This document shows, piece after piece, positions 7,253-63,321 of a stretch of 64,000 bases of DNA (its first letter is position 1; every line of letters begins with the position of its first letter). The position numbers and the translations under genes were made by a program. Source of the stretch: Candidatus Woesearchaeota archaeon (GTDB lineage Archaea; Nanobdellota; Nanobdellia; Woesearchaeales; ARS49); contig JACPID010000003.1 in assembly GCA_016188265.1 (NCBI GenBank), positions 17,070 through 81,069 of the forward strand, given 5' to 3'. The notes under the pieces are model-generated. The model worked only from the letters and a program-made list of their open reading frames with translations, ran no database searches and had not been told where the DNA came from.

Positions 7253-7342
7253 TTAGTTGAGGACATAAGTAAAGCATATATTATTCAACCTCAACTAAGT
7301 TGAAAAAGACAAACTATTTTATGTGTTACTTTTGTCTTTTTC
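7253..7342. repeat. Two-hairpin element with complementary loops, asnS leader
   Basis: Two adjacent perfect hairpins: stem 7253-7262 with 7289-7298 (10 bp, 26-nt loop) and stem 7302-7313 with 7331-7342 (12 bp, 17-nt loop). Loop 1 begins ACATAA (7263-7268); loop 2 contains its exact complement TTATGT (7319-7324), so a loop-loop contact is possible. It lies between the divergent antitoxin and asnS genes, so here it is not a simple terminator. Confidence 0.65.
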
Positions 7343-7387
7343 TATTTTTACTAAACACTTAAAAACACTGCACATTGAAGTACACCT

Positions 7388-10931: not shown

Positions 10932-11033
10932 AAAAAACTAGAATAATTTATGATTTAAAACTATTATGATTATTAGATTCACAGCCTTAGTCTTCACAGT
11001 ACTTCTGCAGAGATTGATTTATTAGGCAGTAAT

Positions 11034-11093
11034 TAACTTTGCCACCTGCGAAATAAAATACAACTTAAACTACTCCTCTATCTATTCAAGTGG
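11034..11093. repeat. Long-arm intergenic hairpin
   Basis: A 13-bp perfect inverted repeat (TTAACTTTGCCAC against GTGGCAAAGTTAA) with a loop of about 45 nt lies just downstream of the GGDEF gene (minus strand) in a 167-bp gap. The 3' arm runs up to the TAA of that gene. It may act as a terminator or be a relative of the other palindromic elements in this window, but its large loop sets it apart. Confidence 0.5.
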
Positions 11094-11098
11094 CAAAG

Positions 11099-12595
11099 TT
11101 AATTAGTAAGGTATTCTTGAATAATTTGTATATGATTTTTACCTCTACGTTTAGCCTCATACAAAGCTGCATCAGCTATTTCAAATAATTTTTTTGACAA
11201 TTGGTCTGCATTTTCAATAGTTATTAATTTGCCTTTTCCATTAAAAAAAGCAAGACCTCCTGAAATAGTGAATTTATCATCAATGCCAATTCGCTTAAAA
11301 AAAATAGGACTTTCTTTTTCAATAAGCAAACGTAAACGATTTACTACGCCAACAATCTCATGAAAGTCAGCAGGAGAAAAAATAACGCAAAACTCTTCCC
11401 CACCATAACGAAAAACAAGATCTTTAGCTTTAAGGGCTTTTCTTGAAGTATTTCCCAAAAACCGAAGCACATTATCCCCAACTGCGTGGCCGTAAGTATC
11501 ATTTATTCTTTTAAAATTATCACCATCAAAAACAAGCAGGCATAACTGAGAACTATCTTTGCTTGCTCTCTGAATTAGTTCTGGAATTTTCTTCCAAAAA
11601 TATTTTTTTGTAAAACAATTAGTCAACTGATCAATCAATGCTTCAAGCGCTGCAGCAGCAAGTTCTTTTTTTTCACGCAAAGAAAGCCATAAAGAACGAA
11701 GAGAATATCTTGATAAGGTTTTTTTACAAGGATCATCAAGCATATCGCTATGCTCCATAAGCAAAGACTGATATTCTAAAACTTCTTCAGGTTTTGTAAA
11801 AGTTCTCAAGTCTTCTTTTACATCTGATAATGTTATAACAGTTTTTTTTGAAAATGAAAAAAACATCATCTTTCTAGTTATTAAATCATGAATTTGTGTT
11901 TTTACAGTTCTCTTTTTTTCAAAAATATTTTGCAAAGGTGCAAGACATTCATTTTTTTCTTTGTATAAAGATAAAATGATTGCATAAATAATTTCTTCAA
12001 GCTCTTCTTCTTTTGCTCTAATCTGATCTTTATTAATTTCACTTAAGTGTTCATACCATTGAAATACTTCATCTTCTTTTTGTAAAAAAAGTTTTTGATC
12101 ATTAATATAAATTTCAAATTTGTCAAGAATATGTAAAATCTGGTCTGCTAAAGAATCTTCTTCATGTTCTTTTTCAAGCGCTTGCGAGATTTTTTTAGCG
12201 CTTAATCCTATTTTTTTAACAGCCATAGAATTTAAAGCTTCATTCTCCTTTGCTTCTAAAAAATCACGCCACTCTTTTGATAAAATGCTCTCCTCTTTTG
12301 CAGTAAGAGTTTTTTCTTCAAGTAAAAGCGCATATTCTTTTTTTTCATAATCTAAAATTGATTGAAACTTTGAAAAAATCTGCCTCCGGATCTTTTCAAT
12401 TTCGGATTTTATATGAAATATATTTGATAAATCGCTCGCATCTCTAAGTTGCCTGCTCCACCAAACGAGATTTGCAATAAGTTTTTTATGCTCCTTAATA
12501 GTATTTAAACGATCAAAAAAACTTTTGAAAACTTCCTGTTCTTGTTCACCTATTTTTTTAAATGCAACATACAATCTCTCAATATCATTGTTCAT
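11099..12595 (-). CDS. GGDEF-domain protein (putative diguanylate cyclase)
   Basis: The C-terminal ~165 residues are a GGDEF domain, the cyclase that makes c-di-GMP from [23 protein letters not shown] metal/nucleotide segment and an intact GGEEF active loop near residue 396. The inhibitory-site RxxD is KAKD here, so product feedback may be weak. The N-terminal ~320 residues are long charged helices without membrane segments. It overlaps the upstream HerA gene by 4 bp, implying co-expression. GGDEF proteins are rare in archaea, and a second one occurs at 19497; no EAL or HD-GYP phosphodiesterase is seen in the window. Confidence 0.88.
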
Positions 12596-16942: not shown

Positions 16943-17030
16943 TAGAAAACGAAATAAATAATAGGACAATAGTTTCGTTTTCTAAATAGTACGCGCCATA
17001 AGAGTGTCCTACAAATTATGGCGCGTACTA
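16943..17030. repeat. Two-hairpin intergenic element, copy 1
   Basis: Hairpin 1: 12-bp stem 16943-16954 with 16973-16984 and an 18-nt loop. Hairpin 2: 15-bp perfect stem 16987-17001 with 17016-17030 and a 14-nt loop. Loop 1 carries TAGGACA (16962-16968) and loop 2 its exact complement TGTCCTA (17005-17011), so the two can form a kissing contact. It sits between two convergent genes, where it could also terminate both. A near-identical copy lies at 32070-32158 and a half copy at 63157-63201. Confidence 0.85.
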
Positions 17031-18379: not shown

Positions 18380-19489
18380 ATGCAATTAAAAAATAAAAAC
18401 TTAGAAGAAAAAACAATCTTGTTTCTTAAAAACCTTGAAAAAAAAGACAAAATTGCAATAATGCACCATTCAGACCCAGATGGTGTTTGTTCTGGAGTTC
18501 TTATTTCAAAAATTATTGAACGTTTAAGAGATAAACCAATTGATTTACGTTATAATCAACATAGCAATGAACATGCTATACAACCACAAACTGTTAAATT
18601 ACTAAAAAAATACAGTATTAACAAACTAATAACAACAGACATATGTTCTGAAGAAAATAAAAAAAAATTAGAAGAAGTAGAAGATTTTGCTAAAATACTG
18701 ATTATAGATCATCACAGATTTAAACATGATGCAAACTCAGAAAAAACCATTATGTTTAAGCCCCAACTTGTTTATGAAGGTATTGAACCTTCAAAGTATT
18801 GTTCAGCAAAACTAGTATATGATTTAGGAGAAAAATGCAGTATTTTTATGAAGGATCTTGATTGGATAGCATCGATAGGCATTGTTGCTGACATGGCTTT
18901 TCAAGAATGGGAAGAATTTCTTAAAAACACTGCTGAAAAATATGGAATTGAAAAAAATAATTGGTGGGAAGGAAAATTTGGAAAAGCTTCAAACCTAATT
19001 AATGATACTGAATGCTTTAATGATGAGCTTGCTAAAGAAAGTTTTTATTTTTTATCAAATGCGAGAAATATCCGAGATTTTTTATCATCTCCTTTAATAA
19101 AATATCAGAATATTATTCAAGAAGAAGTTGATAATTGTCTCTCCTCTGCTAATGAAAAAGCAGAACATTATTCAGAATTAGAGCTGGTATATTACGAGAT
19201 TAAACCTAAATATAAAGTAAAATCTTCAATAAGCACATTGATAAGCATGGAAAAGCCAAATACAACATTTATTATTGTTGACTTGTCAGAAGAGTATGCT
19301 ACTGTAAGCGGAAGAAGATTAGATGGAAAAATTGCAATGAATGAATTATTTGAATATGCAACAAAAGACATAACAGAAGCGCATGGGGGAGGACATGTTA
19401 ATTCAGGAGGAGCTACTGTTCCAAAAAAAAGTTATGCTCTATTTAAACAAAGAATTTTTGAATATCTCAAAAACTACCTACTTCAGTAG
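18380..19489 (+). CDS. DHH/DHHA1-family phosphoesterase (RecJ-like)
   Basis: Contains the DHH phosphoesterase motifs: HHSDPDGVCSG, TTDICS, IDHHRF, and the C-terminal DHHA1 signature GGGHVNSGGA. Such archaeal proteins are single-strand exonucleases or oligonucleotide/cyclic-nucleotide phosphodiesterases. I prefer the ATG at 18380, because the 20 residues from an upstream ATG (18320) are Tyr-rich and not domain-like, and a TATA-like ATTATTATAAAA sits about 25-30 nt before 18380. The next gene encodes a GGDEF cyclase; a link through dinucleotide turnover is possible but speculative. The stop lies inside a strong hairpin. Confidence 0.83.
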   Translation: MQLKNKNLEEKTILFLKNLEKKDKIAIMHHSDPDGVCSGVLISKIIERLRDKPIDLRYNQHSNEHAIQPQTVKLLKKYSINKLITTDICSEENKKKLEEVEDFAKILIIDHHRFKHDANSEKTIMFKPQLVYEGIEPSKYCSAKLVYDLGEKCSIFMKDLDWIASIGIVADMAFQEWEEFLKNTAEKYGIEKNNWWEGKFGKASNLINDTECFNDELAKESFYFLSNARNIRDFLSSPLIKYQNIIQEEVDNCLSSANEKAEHYSELELVYYEIKPKYKVKSSISTLISMEKPNTTFIIVDLSEEYATVSGRRLDGKIAMNELFEYATKDITEAHGGGHVNSGGATVPKKSYALFKQRIFEYLKNYLLQ

Positions 19490-19501
19490 GTAGTTTTTGA
19501 T
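19468..19501. terminator. Perfect 16-bp hairpin at the DHH stop codon
   Basis: TCAAAAACTACCTACT is followed after two bases by its exact inverted copy ending in TTTTTGA. The arm contains the DHH gene's stop and overlaps the possible TTG start of the next gene, so it could attenuate read-through or gate translation of the GGDEF gene. Confidence 0.55.
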
Positions 19502-32069: not shown

Positions 32070-32158
32070 TAGAAAACGAAATAAATAATAGGGCAATAGT
32101 TTCGTTTTCTAAATAGTACGCGCCATAAAGAGTGTCCTACAAATTATGGCGCGTACTA
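32070..32158. repeat. Two-hairpin intergenic element, copy 2
   Basis: Nearly identical to 16943-17030. Stem 1: 32070-32081 with 32100-32111 (12 bp); stem 2: 32114-32128 with 32144-32158 (15 bp). Loop 1 reads TAGGGCA (32089-32095), one base changed from copy 1; loop 2 keeps TGTCCTA (32133-32139). The changed base still pairs as G-U in plus-strand RNA. It begins 3 bp after trxB. Confidence 0.85.
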
Positions 32159-40249: not shown

Positions 40250-43200
40250 CTAACCAAAATATGCTGGTTTTTCTTCACTCATTTGTTTTCCTTTGGCAGC
40301 ACTAAAGTGTTCACCTAATTCTTCATAAGCCTTTTCAACATCTTTATTTGCACTCGGGCGTACTTTCTTTAATGCATCATCAAAATGCTTTTGAGAAATA
40401 ACCTTTGAATTAATGTCTTCACGTAAAGCAAAAATAGCAGCTTCACGGCATACTGCTTCAATATCTGCACCTGCATAACCTTGTGTACGTTCTGCAAGAT
40501 CAGTAATTTTAACTTCTTTAAGAGGCATATTTTTTGTATGGACCTTAAATATTTCTTCTCGGGTTTTTTTATCAGGAACAGGAGTAAGTATTATACGGTC
40601 AAACCTTCCAGGACGCAATAACGCTGTATCAAGCATATCTGGCCTATTAGTTGCGCCTACAACAACAACATCATGCAATGATTCTATACCATCAATTTCA
40701 GTTAATAATTGATTTACAACACGCTCAACAACATGATTATCACCATCAGCACCTCTTCTAGGAGCAAGACTATCAATTTCATCAAAGAAAATTATTGTTG
40801 GAGCTGTTTGGCGCGCTTTCTTAAAAACCTCGCGAACAGCCTTCTCGCTTTCGCCCAACCATTTACTCAAAAGTTCCGGCCCTTTAACACTTATAAAATT
40901 AGCCTCACTTTCCTTGGCAATTGCTTTTGCTAATAATGTTTTTCCAGTGCCTGGCGCTCCATACACTAAAACTCCTTTTGGCGGTTTTACTCCAAGACGC
41001 TGAAATGCTTCAGGATGTTTTAAAGGCCATTCAATAGCTTCTTTAAGTTCTTGTTTAGCTGCGTCTAATCCGCCAATATCAGACCAGCTGACATTCGGTG
41101 TTTCAACAAAAACCTCACGCAATGCAGACGGCCGAACAACTTTAAGCGCTTCTTTAAAATCATCACGAGTAACAAGCAATTTTTCAAGAATTTCTTTAGG
41201 TATTGCTTCAGTCTGATCATATTTTAAATCAGGAAAAACTTTTCTAAGAACAATCATAGCAGCTTCTTTTGCAAGAGCTGAAAGATCAGCCCCAACAAAA
41301 CCGTGAGTAATTGCTGCAAGCTCCTTAAGATCAACATCTTTTGCAAGAGGCATATTTCTTGTATGAATTTTAAGAATTGTTAAACGACCTTCTTTATTAG
41401 GAACACCTATTTCAAGTTCTCTATCAAAACGACCTGGACGGCGAAGAGCTGGATCTAAAATATTTGGAACATTAGTAGCAGCAATAACAATAATTTTACC
41501 TCTACTTTTTAAGCCATCCATTAAAGCAAGCAATTGCGCAACAACACGGCGTTCAACCTCTCCTCTTGTTTCTTCACGCTTACTTGCAATAGCATCAATT
41601 TCATCAATAAAAATAATAGACGGCGCATTTTTTTCAGCTTCTTCAAATTTTTTACGAATGTTTTCTTCACTTGCTCCGTAGTATTTGCTGTTATGTAATA
41701 ATAATAGGTTGCCAGCAACAAAATTATTTTTATCTACTGTAAAATCATATAACTCTTGGTCAGGGAGGATTTGTTTATTTTTGATGTATTCCCATGCAAT
41801 ATCTTTTCGCATTAAAGTATTGTATTCTGCCTTAATATCAGAACTTAATTTATTTTCTCTACTAATAATGTTGTATAACTTTTGTAAAGTGTATTTAGTA
41901 AATCTGCCTTTTCCATAAACATAGTAATCATTATTTCTATATTTGTTATAAGCAACTGTTTTTCTTAGTTTATCCAAAAGAAGATGCGGCGTTGGTATGT
42001 TTGCGTGTTCTTTTTCTTTGATAGCTTCTGTTATTAAATTTAGTTTGTCTTGTTTTATTCTGCTTCCTACTTGTTTCGCAAAACTAATGCGCCCTTCATG
42101 ACCGCGAATAACTAATGCAAACATAATTCCTTTTGGTGTTGGATGTTTTTTAAGAAATGTTTGAATTAGTAATTTAGAATTTAATAATGCTTGTAATTCT
42201 ATCAAAAATTCTTTTGATTTTGAATATATTTTTGGCGTAGGATAATGGATGATTTTTTGTTTTGTTTTGATTGTTTGAATAGAAACTGTTCCATCACCAT
42301 CAAAATATCCTCTAATGAACGCTGCTACTTCTTCTTTTGGAAGACTATAGAAGTATGGTGGAAGCGTGTCTGTCTTTTTGCCAGGATGCAATCCTAATAA
42401 GCCTAAGTACTTAACTAAAATAGCAGAATATGTTGCTACTCTTCCATCATGCATTTCAGTTATTTTTTCTGCAGGGATATCAAAGAGCTTGTTGAGAAGC
42501 AATTTGAATTGATTCCTTAGAAGGGGATTATTATTTGCAAAAACTACAGCATCGCCTTTTTTACTTATGTGTCCGTCAGACCAAATTAATCCTAATAATT
42601 CAAGAAGATCTGAACTGGTTTTTTTAGGCAGTTGTATAAAATTGCTGCGATTAATATTTTTTGATATAAGACTGTATTTTTTATTTTTGCAGACTAATTT
42701 AGGAATATTTTTTATCGGTATAATACGTGATTTTTTAGGTAAATTTATTTCTCCAATACGTGCAACAAAATCTCCCTCTTTTAATTCTTCTAATCTTCTC
42801 CAAACAAGTTTGCCGCAACTGTACGTTAAAAAAGGTTGATTAAATGACCCTTTGACTTCATTCCCGTCGCTTAATATGATTTTAATTGCAGGCCCTTTTA
42901 ATTTTACTACATGTGTTATTTTTGCTTTTGTAATCTTGTTATTTTTTTCATCAAGTGCATATGTTGTTAAAGGTTTTTTAAATTCAACAACATCAATTGA
43001 TCCTAATTTTTTCTCTACACCTTTTGCATTGTCAAATATTTTTTTTGCAGTAACATGTCCTTTTGGGTTTAAGAATATTTTTGTATCTCCATCAACACAC
43101 ATAATCTCAGGACCATTAATAGAAATAAAGTGTGAATTTGTTTCATTTGCAACTGCTTTTGCTAATAATGTTTTCCCAGTGCCTGGAGGCCCGTGCAATA

Positions 43201-43936
43201 AAACACCTTTTGGCGGTTCTATGCCTAAACGCTCAAAAATTTCAGGATGTTTTAATGGCAATTCAACCATTTCACGTATTTTTTTAATTTCATCTTCCAA
43301 ACCACCTATATCTTCATAAGCAACTTCAGGTAAAGTTTCTTCTTTTACTGCAACTGCTTCAGGATTTAAAGTAACATCTGTTGCTTCAGTAATGATAACA
43401 GGCCCTTTTGGATTTGTTTCTGCAACAATAAACTTAAGATCCCCAAAACCAAAACCACCCATCATACTTTCTTCCATCATAGAAAACACATCCTCAAAAA
43501 AAGGACTTCCACTCATAGCAGCACGCCTTCTTTTTGTTCCACCTAAAGAAATAACATCACCTTTTACAACAGCTCTTCCTAACAAACCTTGCTTGAACAA
43601 ATTAGAAGAAGCGCGAACAACAATACCTTCACGCGCGGGTGCAATAATAACCTTTTTAGCATGGTCAATTTTTACAGCACGCACTTTAATCATTTCACCA
43701 ATAGAAGTTTTAGCATTTTTACGAATTAAATTATCCATACGGATCATATTTAATCCAATATCACCAGGATAAGCGCGATCCACAAGTGCAACAGTTTTTC
43801 TTCCGCCTTCTATCTCAACAATGTCCCCAGGATGAACCCCTATATCTCTCATGAGATTACTATCTATACGAATAATGCCTTTACTAACATCATCCTGTAT
43901 AGCTTCAGCAACTTTCAATCTCAGATCATTTACCAT
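40250..43936 (-). CDS. CDC48/VAT AAA+ ATPase with intein
   Basis: Protein-unfolding ATPase with double-psi barrel N-domain (~1-185) and two AAA modules. D1 Walker A GPPGTGKT at 249-256, D1 Walker [10 protein letters not shown]2 Walker [10 protein letters not shown]2 Walker B IIFFDEID, arginine-finger region [11 protein letters not shown]. The 1228-residue reading frame includes a 470-residue intein in D1 between GPEIM and SKYYG; removal leaves 758 residues, the normal CDC48 length. It would act with the proteasome or in general protein extraction. Confidence 0.95.
41690..43099 (-). other. Intein in CDC48 D1 domain, with LAGLIDADG endonuclease
   Basis: 470 residues, from Cys280 ([12 protein letters not shown]) to a terminal His-Asn, with Ser as the +1 residue. 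It has paired LAGLIDADG motifs ([12 protein letters not shown] and [13 protein letters not shown]) with both acidic residues kept, so the homing endonuclease may be active. Block F/G reads [13 protein letters not shown]. Oddity: the block B TxxH position reads SFNQ, lacking the usual His that assists N-terminal acyl shift. The site lies just after Walker A in the substrate-facing D1 loop, a typical conserved target. Confidence 0.92.
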
Positions 43937-46460: not shown

Positions 46461-46543
46461 GTTATACTATAATTTCTTTTAGTTTATATTTGTTACTGAT
46501 ACTATAGCAAAATTTATTAATAAAGTAGTATATTTAGTATAGG

Positions 46544-46632
46544 CGCCGAACTTAATAATTGTATAAATAATAGTTAAGTTCGGCGAATATAACAAACGCA
46601 AAAATTATGAAAATATAGTGCGTTTGCTATAT
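46544..46632. repeat. Two-hairpin intergenic element, variant stems
   Basis: Hairpin 1: perfect 12-bp stem 46544-46555 with 46574-46585. Hairpin 2: 13 of 14 bp, 46587-46600 with 46619-46632. Both loops are exactly 18 nt and end ATAG, like loop 1 of the 16943 copy, while the stems are unrelated in sequence. Loop 1 TAATT and loop 2 AATTA give only a weak complement. It fills the divergent gap before the surface operon, ending 19 bp before its first ATG. Confidence 0.7.
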
Positions 46633-46651: not shown

Positions 46652-49357
46652 ATGCGATGGATCATTGCAATAAGCGTCATACTAATTGTACTTCCATTAA
46701 CTAATGCAGTTGTATTTGATTATTATATTGGTGAAGCTAATTCTATACACCTTTTACCAGGCCAGAAGCAAGAATTGCCTACAAAACAGTTTATGATTTA
46801 CTTAAATTCTTGCGGCAGTGTTGCAAGAAATAGATGTTCTTCCCTGTCAAGTTTTAATGCTGTTATTGATAGTGTTTCTCTTCCAGGCCATAATCCAGGA
46901 GTTGATGTTTTTGCTTGTTATACTGCTGTTTCAGAAAAATTTGTTCAAACTATTTCATTTTCCGGCACAGCTCCTAATAAAGTTGATGACCATAAATGCA
47001 ATTTTAATGCTTATGCAGATGCATTTTTGTTTGAAAATTTCACTAAAAAACAAGCAAGCGCTTCCTTTAGTGATAAAGAAGCAAAACCTCTTGGCAGTGT
47101 AGAAGAGCTTTTAGGCCCTGTAAATGTTAATGAAGCAACTGTTTTTTCTGCATCAAATGATGTTATTGTTTGGATTGGAACAGACATGGATTTTGGAATT
47201 AAAAAAACCAGAGATTTTACAAAAAATGCATGGGCTTGTCTTGATTCAAATCATAATCAGCAATGTGATTATATTGATGGAAAAGAATGCATTGCAAAAA
47301 AAGGCTCTTGGTATAATGGTTTTTGCTGCGGTGTTGATTATAACCCAGGATATTATTCTACATTAAAAAAAACAGTTCCTGTGTGGGGCTTAAAAACACA
47401 GCAAATTGATGTTCCTGTTAATTCAATTTGCGGAACTAATGTTGAGGGCAAATACCAATGGCTACCTTTAGAAGAAGTTGGAGAACCTAGATCATCACTT
47501 GAACCTGAAGGCTTATTTGTATCTGATGGAACTAAATTTTTTAATTGCGGCGGCGATAAAGATTTTATGAACCTTCACGGAATTCCAAAACTTGACAAAT
47601 CTATATTTACGTACAAAGGAAAATCAAATGAATACCTTTGCCAGAATGAAGAAATAATTTCTTGCGGAGGAAATACCCCTTTTTCTGAATTATCAAAAAA
47701 TCCCGGGGAAAAGATTAATTACAAAAGTAAAGAATATTATTGCAGCAGTTCAGGCTTATTTGTTGATGACCTCGATAAAACTGATGAATCAACCTGCAAT
47801 AATGCAGGATTTATTTGGACTGGAACAAAATGTTGCGGAGATCCTGAAGAAAAACCAGAATATTATAACGATCCTTACAATTCTTCAAAAGTTAAACAAG
47901 GGCTTGGCGGAGGCTGTTGGAATAGTAATTTTGTTGCTAGAGGCAGAACAATTCCAGATGATCAGGGAATTATCAACCATCAAGGAGAGTTTTATAGTTG
48001 TAAATTTCCAACTAATCAAGCGCTTCTATTGCAAGTTAAAAATGAACAAGAATGCACAGTTCTTCCAGAATCTGTTCCAGAACCTGAAAATTACAAGCAT
48101 GCAGTATGCCAGCCTAATGGAAAATGGGTTATTGATAATGACTCTTCTGCTAAATCAAAAAAAAGCATTTCATGGAATCCCAATTCTAACCAGATAGTTC
48201 AAGGATGCTGTTCTTCTTCACAATGCTGGGATGGCAATCAATGTAAAAACTTAAATGAATATATAGCAATTTCTGACGATGAAGGATTTCAGTGCACTGC
48301 ACAAGGATGGCAGGCAGCAAAAGTAAAACATCGTTGGGATAGAAAAACAGATGCAGGATTTTGTGAATTAGCATCACAATGTCTTGTCGATCCTTCAGGA
48401 GATTTTTTATTAAATGGAAAACCTGAAGCTTGGTTTGAAAATAAAAAACCTCAATGCATTAATGATTCACAATACATTTTAGATCCAATCTGCGATGATG
48501 GTTCTTGGACTTCTAGAACAAGAAATATTGCTCTTTCATTAATTACTGTTGCAGAACAAGATTCGCCTAATGATTATACTTTATTTTGCGGAAATTACGA
48601 TGAGGTTTTACCATATCTGGACTACTCGGTTTCAAGAGGCGATGTAAAACAATATTTTGAATCTTTTTGCAAGCCATTTAATAGCCAAGATCAATATCCT
48701 TGTGTAAATAATGTTTGCGCTTTAAAATTTTCAAAAGGTGTTGCATTTGGCGCTTCTCTTAATATTCCAATTAATGATGATGAAAAATCATTTTTATATG
48801 CTCTTGACTTAGATAAAAACTTTTGTTCAAATATTGATATAACTGCTAATTTCTATGAAGAATGCAGCCCAGGGCAACTTTCAAAATCAAGCTTATTTTA
48901 CAATCCTAAACAACAATCAATACTTTACTTGCCTAAAGGAAGCATACCTTTTCCTTTAACTTACAAAACTGCATTTGACCGCTTTATAAAACAGCCTTTA
49001 GATACATTAATAACTTATGCTAAAACAATAAGCACTTTAAAAATGCCTCTTGCACAATTTTTTACAAAATTAGGCATTCTTAATAATCTTTATGCAAGCT
49101 CAAAAAATGGAGTTAGAGTATTTGCATTTCTTGAAAAACATCAAACAAAACAAGATGCATCTTATTTAGGAATAAAATATAGCAGCACTGAGTTTTCTGA
49201 ACAGTTATGTTCTGAATTTTTTAAACTTAAGGATGTTAATGCGCAATGCTTAAAACAACCATTGCCTTTTGATTTCTTGCTTATTTCAAAAAGCTATCCT
49301 GGCGAGAAATCACTTGTTGACTTCTGGAATGAACTTACTGGAGGTTTGAGGCTGTGA
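46652..49357 (+). CDS. Large secreted Cys-rich surface protein
   Basis: 901 residues. Signal peptide of ~19 residues (WIIAISVILIVLPLTNA). The exported part repeats a motif of Cys, Gly, aromatic and CCG: CIAKKGSWYNGFCCG, CNNAGFIWTGTKCCG, GCCSSSQCWDGNQC, with further Cys pairs throughout. No C-terminal anchor, so it is released or held by partners. First of seven genes in line; the next starts 4 bp before its stop. Likely an extracellular structural or adhesion protein stabilised by disulfides. No known family. Confidence 0.75.
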   Translation: MRWIIAISVILIVLPLTNAVVFDYYIGEANSIHLLPGQKQELPTKQFMIYLNSCGSVARNRCSSLSSFNAVIDSVSLPGHNPGVDVFACYTAVSEKFVQTISFSGTAPNKVDDHKCNFNAYADAFLFENFTKKQASASFSDKEAKPLGSVEELLGPVNVNEATVFSASNDVIVWIGTDMDFGIKKTRDFTKNAWACLDSNHNQQCDYIDGKECIAKKGSWYNGFCCGVDYNPGYYSTLKKTVPVWGLKTQQIDVPVNSICGTNVEGKYQWLPLEEVGEPRSSLEPEGLFVSDGTKFFNCGGDKDFMNLHGIPKLDKSIFTYKGKSNEYLCQNEEIISCGGNTPFSELSKNPGEKINYKSKEYYCSSSGLFVDDLDKTDESTCNNAGFIWTGTKCCGDPEEKPEYYNDPYNSSKVKQGLGGGCWNSNFVARGRTIPDDQGIINHQGEFYSCKFPTNQALLLQVKNEQECTVLPESVPEPENYKHAVCQPNGKWVIDNDSSAKSKKSISWNPNSNQIVQGCCSSSQCWDGNQCKNLNEYIAISDDEGFQCTAQGWQAAKVKHRWDRKTDAGFCELASQCLVDPSGDFLLNGKPEAWFENKKPQCINDSQYILDPICDDGSWTSRTRNIALSLITVAEQDSPNDYTLFCGNYDEVLPYLDYSVSRGDVKQYFESFCKPFNSQDQYPCVNNVCALKFSKGVAFGASLNIPINDDEKSFLYALDLDKNFCSNIDITANFYEECSPGQLSKSSLFYNPKQQSILYLPKGSIPFPLTYKTAFDRFIKQPLDTLITYAKTISTLKMPLAQFFTKLGILNNLYASSKNGVRVFAFLEKHQTKQDASYLGIKYSSTEFSEQLCSEFFKLKDVNAQCLKQPLPFDFLLISKSYPGEKSLVDFWNELTGGLRL

Positions 49358-63201: not shown

Positions 63202-63233
63202 AAATAACATCTGTGAGTTTTCTCTTAGAGTAA

Positions 63234-63321
63234 TGCCAGACATAAATAATTATACAAAATAGTTATGTCTGGCAGACTTAGTAACTGACAAGAATTGTAC
63301 AAATAATATGTCAGTTACTAA
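63234..63321. repeat. Two-hairpin element, variant stems
   Basis: Hairpin 1: 12-bp perfect stem 63234-63245 with 63263-63274, 17-nt loop ending ATAG. Hairpin 2: 13-bp perfect stem 63278-63290 with 63309-63321, 18-nt loop. The loops (ATAATTATACAAAATAG; AGAATTGTACAAATAATA) resemble loop 1 of the 46544 element (TAATTGTATAAATAATAG) while the stems differ. Precedes the promoter of the 63379 gene. Confidence 0.7.

Follow-up and report, generated by a model that had tools for sequence, protein, structure and literature searches.

In DDE transposition, the terminal repeats are normally recognised as linear sequence in double-stranded DNA. The mariner-mobilised Stowaway MITEs of plants form a class comparable to the elements described here. 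In fungal and algal mitochondria, double-hairpin elements likewise consist of two tandem hairpins and are mobile and lineage-specific; their loops and lengths are unlike those of the archaeal elements, and we know of no transposase link or terminal repeats for them. Among prokaryotes, IS630 elements duplicate a 2-bp TA target (ISY100, PMC2170065), MITEs with stable folds have been described (PMC10969869), and compensatory stem changes are known from REPINs (PMC3116915, PMC3733652).

The locus studied here lies in a 64-kb window of Woesearchaeota DNA. An earlier note had described its hairpins singly; they are as it gave them, but each is half of a tandem pair that makes up one element of 87–92 bp. 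The locus has the following parts.

46540 to 46629, forward strand: complete double-hairpin MITE of type B, 90 bp, with ends TAG...CTA; the locus of the earlier note
46544 to 46585, forward strand: hairpin 1 of this MITE, 12-bp perfect stem and 18-nt loop
46587 to 46632, forward strand: hairpin 2, 14-bp stem with one mismatch and 18-nt loop; the right terminal inverted repeat
46538 to 46539, no strand: left TA flank, a possible 2-bp target duplication with 46630–46631
46630 to 46631, no strand: right TA flank, pairing with the left TA of the element at 46540–46629

Hairpin 1 comprises the stem CGCCGAACTTAA, the 18-nt loop taattgtataaataatag and the stem TTAAGTTCGGCG; hairpin 2 comprises ATATAACAAACGCA, the 18-nt loop aaaattatgaaaatatag and TGCGTTTGCTATAT, with one mismatch. 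The core of the left terminal repeat, TTAATAATTGTATAAAT, is similar to the left end of an IS630 element in relative G003, and the nearest match of the right repeat is the right end of the same element. The flanking TA may instead belong to the element end. The position of the locus before the gene at 46652, which the earlier note had placed just ahead of a surface operon, is unremarkable: whether the flanking genes are codirectional, divergent or convergent, the number of elements in a class of gaps roughly follows the length of those gaps. Elsewhere in the window, 40250–43936 on the reverse strand holds the gene for a CDC48-type AAA+ ATPase, split by an intein that carries a LAGLIDADG domain.

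Further MITEs were found in the window.

16943 to 17030, forward strand: complete type A MITE, 88 bp, 3-bp duplication AAA; its hairpin at 16943–16984 has an 18-nt loop ending CAATAG
32070 to 32158, forward strand: complete type A MITE, 89 bp, 3-bp duplication TAA
63159 to 63205, forward strand: type A MITE remnant, hairpin 2 only
63231 to 63320, forward strand: double-hairpin MITE of type B3, 90 bp, without a clear target duplication; left end best matched by this genome's own IS630 end; hairpins at 63234–63274 (17-nt loop ending AATAG) and 63278–63321 (18-nt loop ending AATAATA)
7254 to 7344, reverse strand: type C MITE of 91 bp with a 3-bp AAA duplication; relative G100 has IS630 ends that match both of its ends

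Each element is a tandem pair of hairpins in inverted orientation with sharp ends at TAG...CTA. At either end, the outer arm and the loop together form the terminal inverted repeat, which is followed by the complement of the outer arm. The repeat itself consists of TAG, about nine variable bases and a conserved A/T-rich core, the core being what had been called the loop. The two hairpins are inverted counterparts of each other: a covariance model made from the first matched the second on the opposite strand, and loop 1 was nearer to the inverted loop 2 (0.60) than to the direct one (0.44). Loops measure 14–22 nt, and the foot is a TAG that follows W. The folding energies of the single-stranded elements lie far below those of shuffled sequence (z of -4.3 to -10.7). 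The type A loops TAGGACA and TGTCCTA are complementary and could kiss; we set this aside as a separate feature, since it follows automatically from the inverted-repeat relation. The first four families in this genome were named A, B, C and D. Family A (TAGAAAACGAAA with TAGTACGCGCCATAA) has about 13 full or partial copies; family B includes the copies at 46544, 63234 and C25:85.8k, family C that at 7254–7344 and others, and a further family, E, occurs at C4:63511.

The hairpin pattern is not compositional. Palindrome statistics were compiled over 361 kb (the window and 16 further stretches) of the 924-kb genome, which is in 25 contigs; the rest was searched by model. Among stems scoring at least 10, 18-nt loops numbered 21 and 15-nt loops 14, with 0–7 occurrences at other lengths. 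By palindromy alone, loops of 17–18 nt sat on 11 distinct stems, seven of them with TAG at the loop end on either strand, while 15 third-order Markov shuffles gave 0–5 such stems (mean about 1.5), none with a TAG end. The earlier note had reported loops of equal length (17–18 nt) that usually end in ATAG, with random inverted repeats of this genome as the check; the shuffles do not resemble the real hairpins, and its observation stands.

Copy number, exact target duplications and nesting show that the double-hairpin elements are mobile. Identical 3-mers flank 58 of 64 complete elements across all loci (17.6 expected), and identity extends to 4 bp in just one of the 64. For type A in this genome alone, the 3-bp duplication was seen in 10 of 10 copies, with 4.2 expected. 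The duplicated triplets are nearly all A/T (TAA, TTA, AAA, TTT, ATA, TAT, AAT and ATT), with one TTC. At two places of this genome, C22:42234 and C11:21620, a type B element is nested in a type C element, and L046:4809 is a type C copy that lacks the type B insert. The elements are short, lack a transposase ORF, occur in many copies at unrelated sites and have terminal inverted repeats and a target duplication, as MITEs do. The duplication differs from the 2-bp TA typical of IS630, being 3 bp in types A and C and in most relatives, although the TA flanks of type B would be compatible with an IS630-like TA duplication. The earlier note had regarded conserved loops on changing stems as the reverse of most mobile palindromes, which is apt for the arms, but the elements are themselves mobile palindromes. 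We found no autonomous copy that has hairpins at its ends, and the unpaired hits that we traced led only to nested or truncated elements. Hairpins in G100 considered as the ends of a long element proved to be another double-hairpin family, and the IS66-like ORF that adjoins a copy in G007 is probably a coincidence. In another Woesearchaeota genome (JACPCC010000015), about 60 bp of a different palindromic sequence is inserted in the loop of one element (L256:1076-1190), the intact form of which is present in the same genome (L258).

The R1/R2 models matched 17 of 57 relatives. Across the order, matches were patchy and fell in 58 of 335 genomes, 45 hits being the most for any genome; the named hits are Woesearchaeota. 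When GTDB genomes were searched with a half-repeat pattern that did not require a hairpin, nearly all hits in Woesearchaeota MAGs had the complementary arm, mostly at 12/12 positions. Bacterial hits had no complementary arm (3–8/12), and these A/T-rich half-repeats, like those in IMG/VR contigs, were taken as chance. Similar ends with degenerate hairpins occur in Diapherotrites, namely in GW2011_AR10 (L274) and a LacPavin MAG, the other loci being L257, L252 and L260. Related stems, for example TAGCAAATCTCA, are common to different genera. Many hits lie at contig ends, and many of the assemblies seem to break at these repeats.

Other palindromic repeats also came to light. In a second dispersed family of this genome (window 19467–19500, L035:15385-15454, L038:6185-6247, L043:17150-17211, L045:12011-12072 and L046:3187-3249), stems of the form TCAAAAACTGCT/AGCAGTTTTTGA enclose a loop of some 36 nt with a palindrome of its own, of the CTATCGACTTAAGTCTATAG type; in the window copy the loop is 4 nt. 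Another repeated hairpin, TAATTAACTTTGCCACCTG ... CAAGTGGCAAAGTTAATTA with a loop of 36–38 nt, occurs at window 11030–11105 and at L041:14031-14104. The order also has tandem hairpins of a different class (L207:1675-1772, L199:3708-3796, L205:4520-4611, L099:366-449 and L038:3271-3360), with (G)AACTTTGAA/TTTTGC-like stems and loops of 15–24 nt.

An IS630-type locus (PF13358) is present in this genome at C19:21908-22330. A weight matrix (PWM) was built from 90 distinct MITE ends and applied blind to transposase loci, and in six IS630 loci its best site fell exactly at the element end. Both ends of L241 ranked first and second (21.7 and 18.1), L243 scored 23.0 and this genome's L242 16.4, compared with maxima of 10.9 over 20 control loci and 14.4 over 60 random sequences; L240 (13.8), L244 (10.9) and L238 (6.2) were weaker, none exceeding both maxima. 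The transposase ORFs of the IS630 loci score above the cut-off of NCBIfam NF033545 (IS630). The flanks are TTT on either side of the L241 element and TA in L240, which parallels the 3-bp and TA groups of the MITEs. By family, ends of A matched those of the G014 element (L241) at 24 of 30 positions, C those of G100 at 24 of 30 and E this genome's own IS630, which has a single recognisable end, at 25 of 30. The type B element of the locus studied here corresponds to one IS630, that of G003, left end to left end and right end to right end, in a weak match: the B1 left and right ends each agree at 18 of 30 positions, and shuffled maxima were 16 and 19.

Because their ends match those of IS630, we read the elements as IS630-related MITEs of Woesearchaeota, which IS630-family (Tc1/mariner-like) transposases very probably mobilise in trans. 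This link to a parent, drawn from end similarity over 18–25 of 30 positions, is weak for the reported type B element. A DDE_3 domain was detected in just 6 of 18 element-bearing genomes tested and in none of seven genomes without strong hits. In the parents, the core overlaps the last transposase codons and stop (..YLC-stop or ..DISDY-stop), so that it is constrained twice. The complementary inner arm is absent from the IS630 parent ends, where 5–8 of 12 matches correspond to the chance level; the hairpin thus belongs to the MITE. IS5-type transposases (PF01609) were rejected as parents, as their loci had no flanking hairpins and element-end scores inside the control range. The earlier note had suggested a loop-binding protein, which came close: the loop is the conserved inner part of a terminal repeat common to IS630, and its likely reader is the IS630 transposase.

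One rival origin is as REP/REPIN- or IS200/IS605-like (PATE) palindromes, which a Y1 HUH transposase would move by reading single-stranded hairpins. Such palindromes look similar in being short intergenic palindromes that form inverted doublets with compensatory stem changes (REPINs: PMC3116915), and REPs have a conserved foot, GTAG, where TAG is found here (PMC3733652). Yet the Y1 transposase (Y1_Tnp, PF01797) is absent from this genome and from most copy-rich relatives, some copy-free relatives do have it, and its presence does not track copy number, on which grounds mobilisation by IS200/IS605 or RAYT was rejected. Neither a linked RAYT nor a GTAG foot with a short loop was found, loops of 17–22 nt comparing with mostly 2–5 nt in such palindromes; and the exact 3-bp duplications and IS630-like ends differ from PATEs, which have a Y1 transposase and no target duplication. 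We consider this origin highly improbable and retain the IS630-related reading.

The stems, which had been said to differ entirely, do vary freely in sequence, but they are linked by paired substitutions once relatives are added, for example CGCCGAACTTAA, CGACAAACTTTA, CGACAGACATAA, CGCCGGACATAA and TGCCAGACATAA. Among 77 distinct hairpins, two-sided changes occurred at all 12 stem pairs and 97.7% of cells were paired; stem covariation was 0.915, compared with 0.224 after shuffling and no more than 0.141 in controls that were slid. Because loops of this kind seeded the model that gathered the set, the unbiased test is the palindromy-alone count in 361 kb. The four inner stem positions carry 0.04–0.44 bits and loop positions up to 1.2–1.9 bits (the AAT.AT core and the terminal ATAG); constancy of the closing A-T pair is 97%. 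Conserved loops on strongly covarying stems are typically seen in RNAs, and some copies lie 3–10 bp past stop codons, as might be expected of a family of structured RNAs or of elements for RNA-protein binding, 3′-UTR and terminator hairpins included, that was spread by duplication and whose loops were conserved for an RNA-binding protein. We find this scarcely credible: G-T mismatches, at about 1% of cells, are no commoner than A-C (9 and 10), so there is no sign of RNA-level constraint on one strand; Rfam yielded no family at the gathering threshold in the 64-kb window; gene ends are not preferred; and target duplications and IS630 ends account for the rest. Terminator or promoter roles were likewise dropped, there being no orientation bias.

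Near-perfect stems with paired changes would also arise if template switching during replication (quasipalindrome correction) rewrote the stems, with no need of selection on folding; the earlier note had raised such a mechanism. One case fits it, an exact inversion of the loop between arms in relative G054, where the hairpin 2 loop of copy L137 is the reverse complement of its sister loops (L134, L136 and L138). Frequent correction would pair the changes in close copies, however, and these show mainly uncorrected one-sided changes (68, compared with 13 two-sided), which argues that stems are not rewritten in place and makes this explanation unlikely. Between distant families, two-sided changes outnumber one-sided ones (16,513 and 1,300). 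The contrast probably reflects decay after insertion together with selection for foldable source elements.

A structural role for the hairpin is suggested by the covariation only. We propose that the IS630 transposase would recognise TAG and the loop core, a predicted binding, and that the arm between them, not being read, would drift. The inner arm, peculiar to the MITEs, would have to complement the outer arm, such that transposition-competent elements must fold into a cruciform or a single-strand hairpin. From the self-complementarity kept in the MITE, we infer that the extruded fold helps transposition, end pairing or transposase loading, and source elements are probably selected for their ability to fold. 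After insertion a copy would decay freely, and perfect paired stems would be visible at the level of the source lineage; one way in which the inner arm could have arisen is by snap-back synthesis at a repeat. Structure-dependent DDE transposition, in which MITE ends must fold, unlike the parent's, a short foot and loop core are recognised on an arbitrary self-complementary stem and 3 bp are duplicated, is a tentative suggestion and on balance doubtful.

Our literature searches, which covered open-licence full texts, yielded no earlier description of these elements; IS630-related MITEs with covarying-hairpin ends and mostly 3-bp duplications are apparently a mobile repeat so far undescribed. 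Dozens of families across a whole archaeal order keep arbitrary yet perfectly self-complementary arms at each end, and the parent lacks them. The system allows a direct test of whether end folding helps miniature elements to out-compete their parent, and the covariance model now annotates this mobile repeat in ultra-small archaea.

Like the IS630-derived MITEs of prokaryotes and Stowaway, the elements are short and intergenic, have no ORF, share terminal inverted repeats with IS630/Tc1-mariner and use an A/T target; unlike them, each end is a perfect hairpin with covarying arms that are absent from the parent ends, and most families have 3-bp W-rich duplications in place of TA. With REPINs and BIMEs, the doublets of REPs, they share the inverted pair of short hairpins, a conserved foot, compensatory stem changes and a wide distribution of genome-specific families, but they differ in having no Y1/RAYT gene, TAG rather than GTAG, a long conserved A/T-rich loop and a target duplication.
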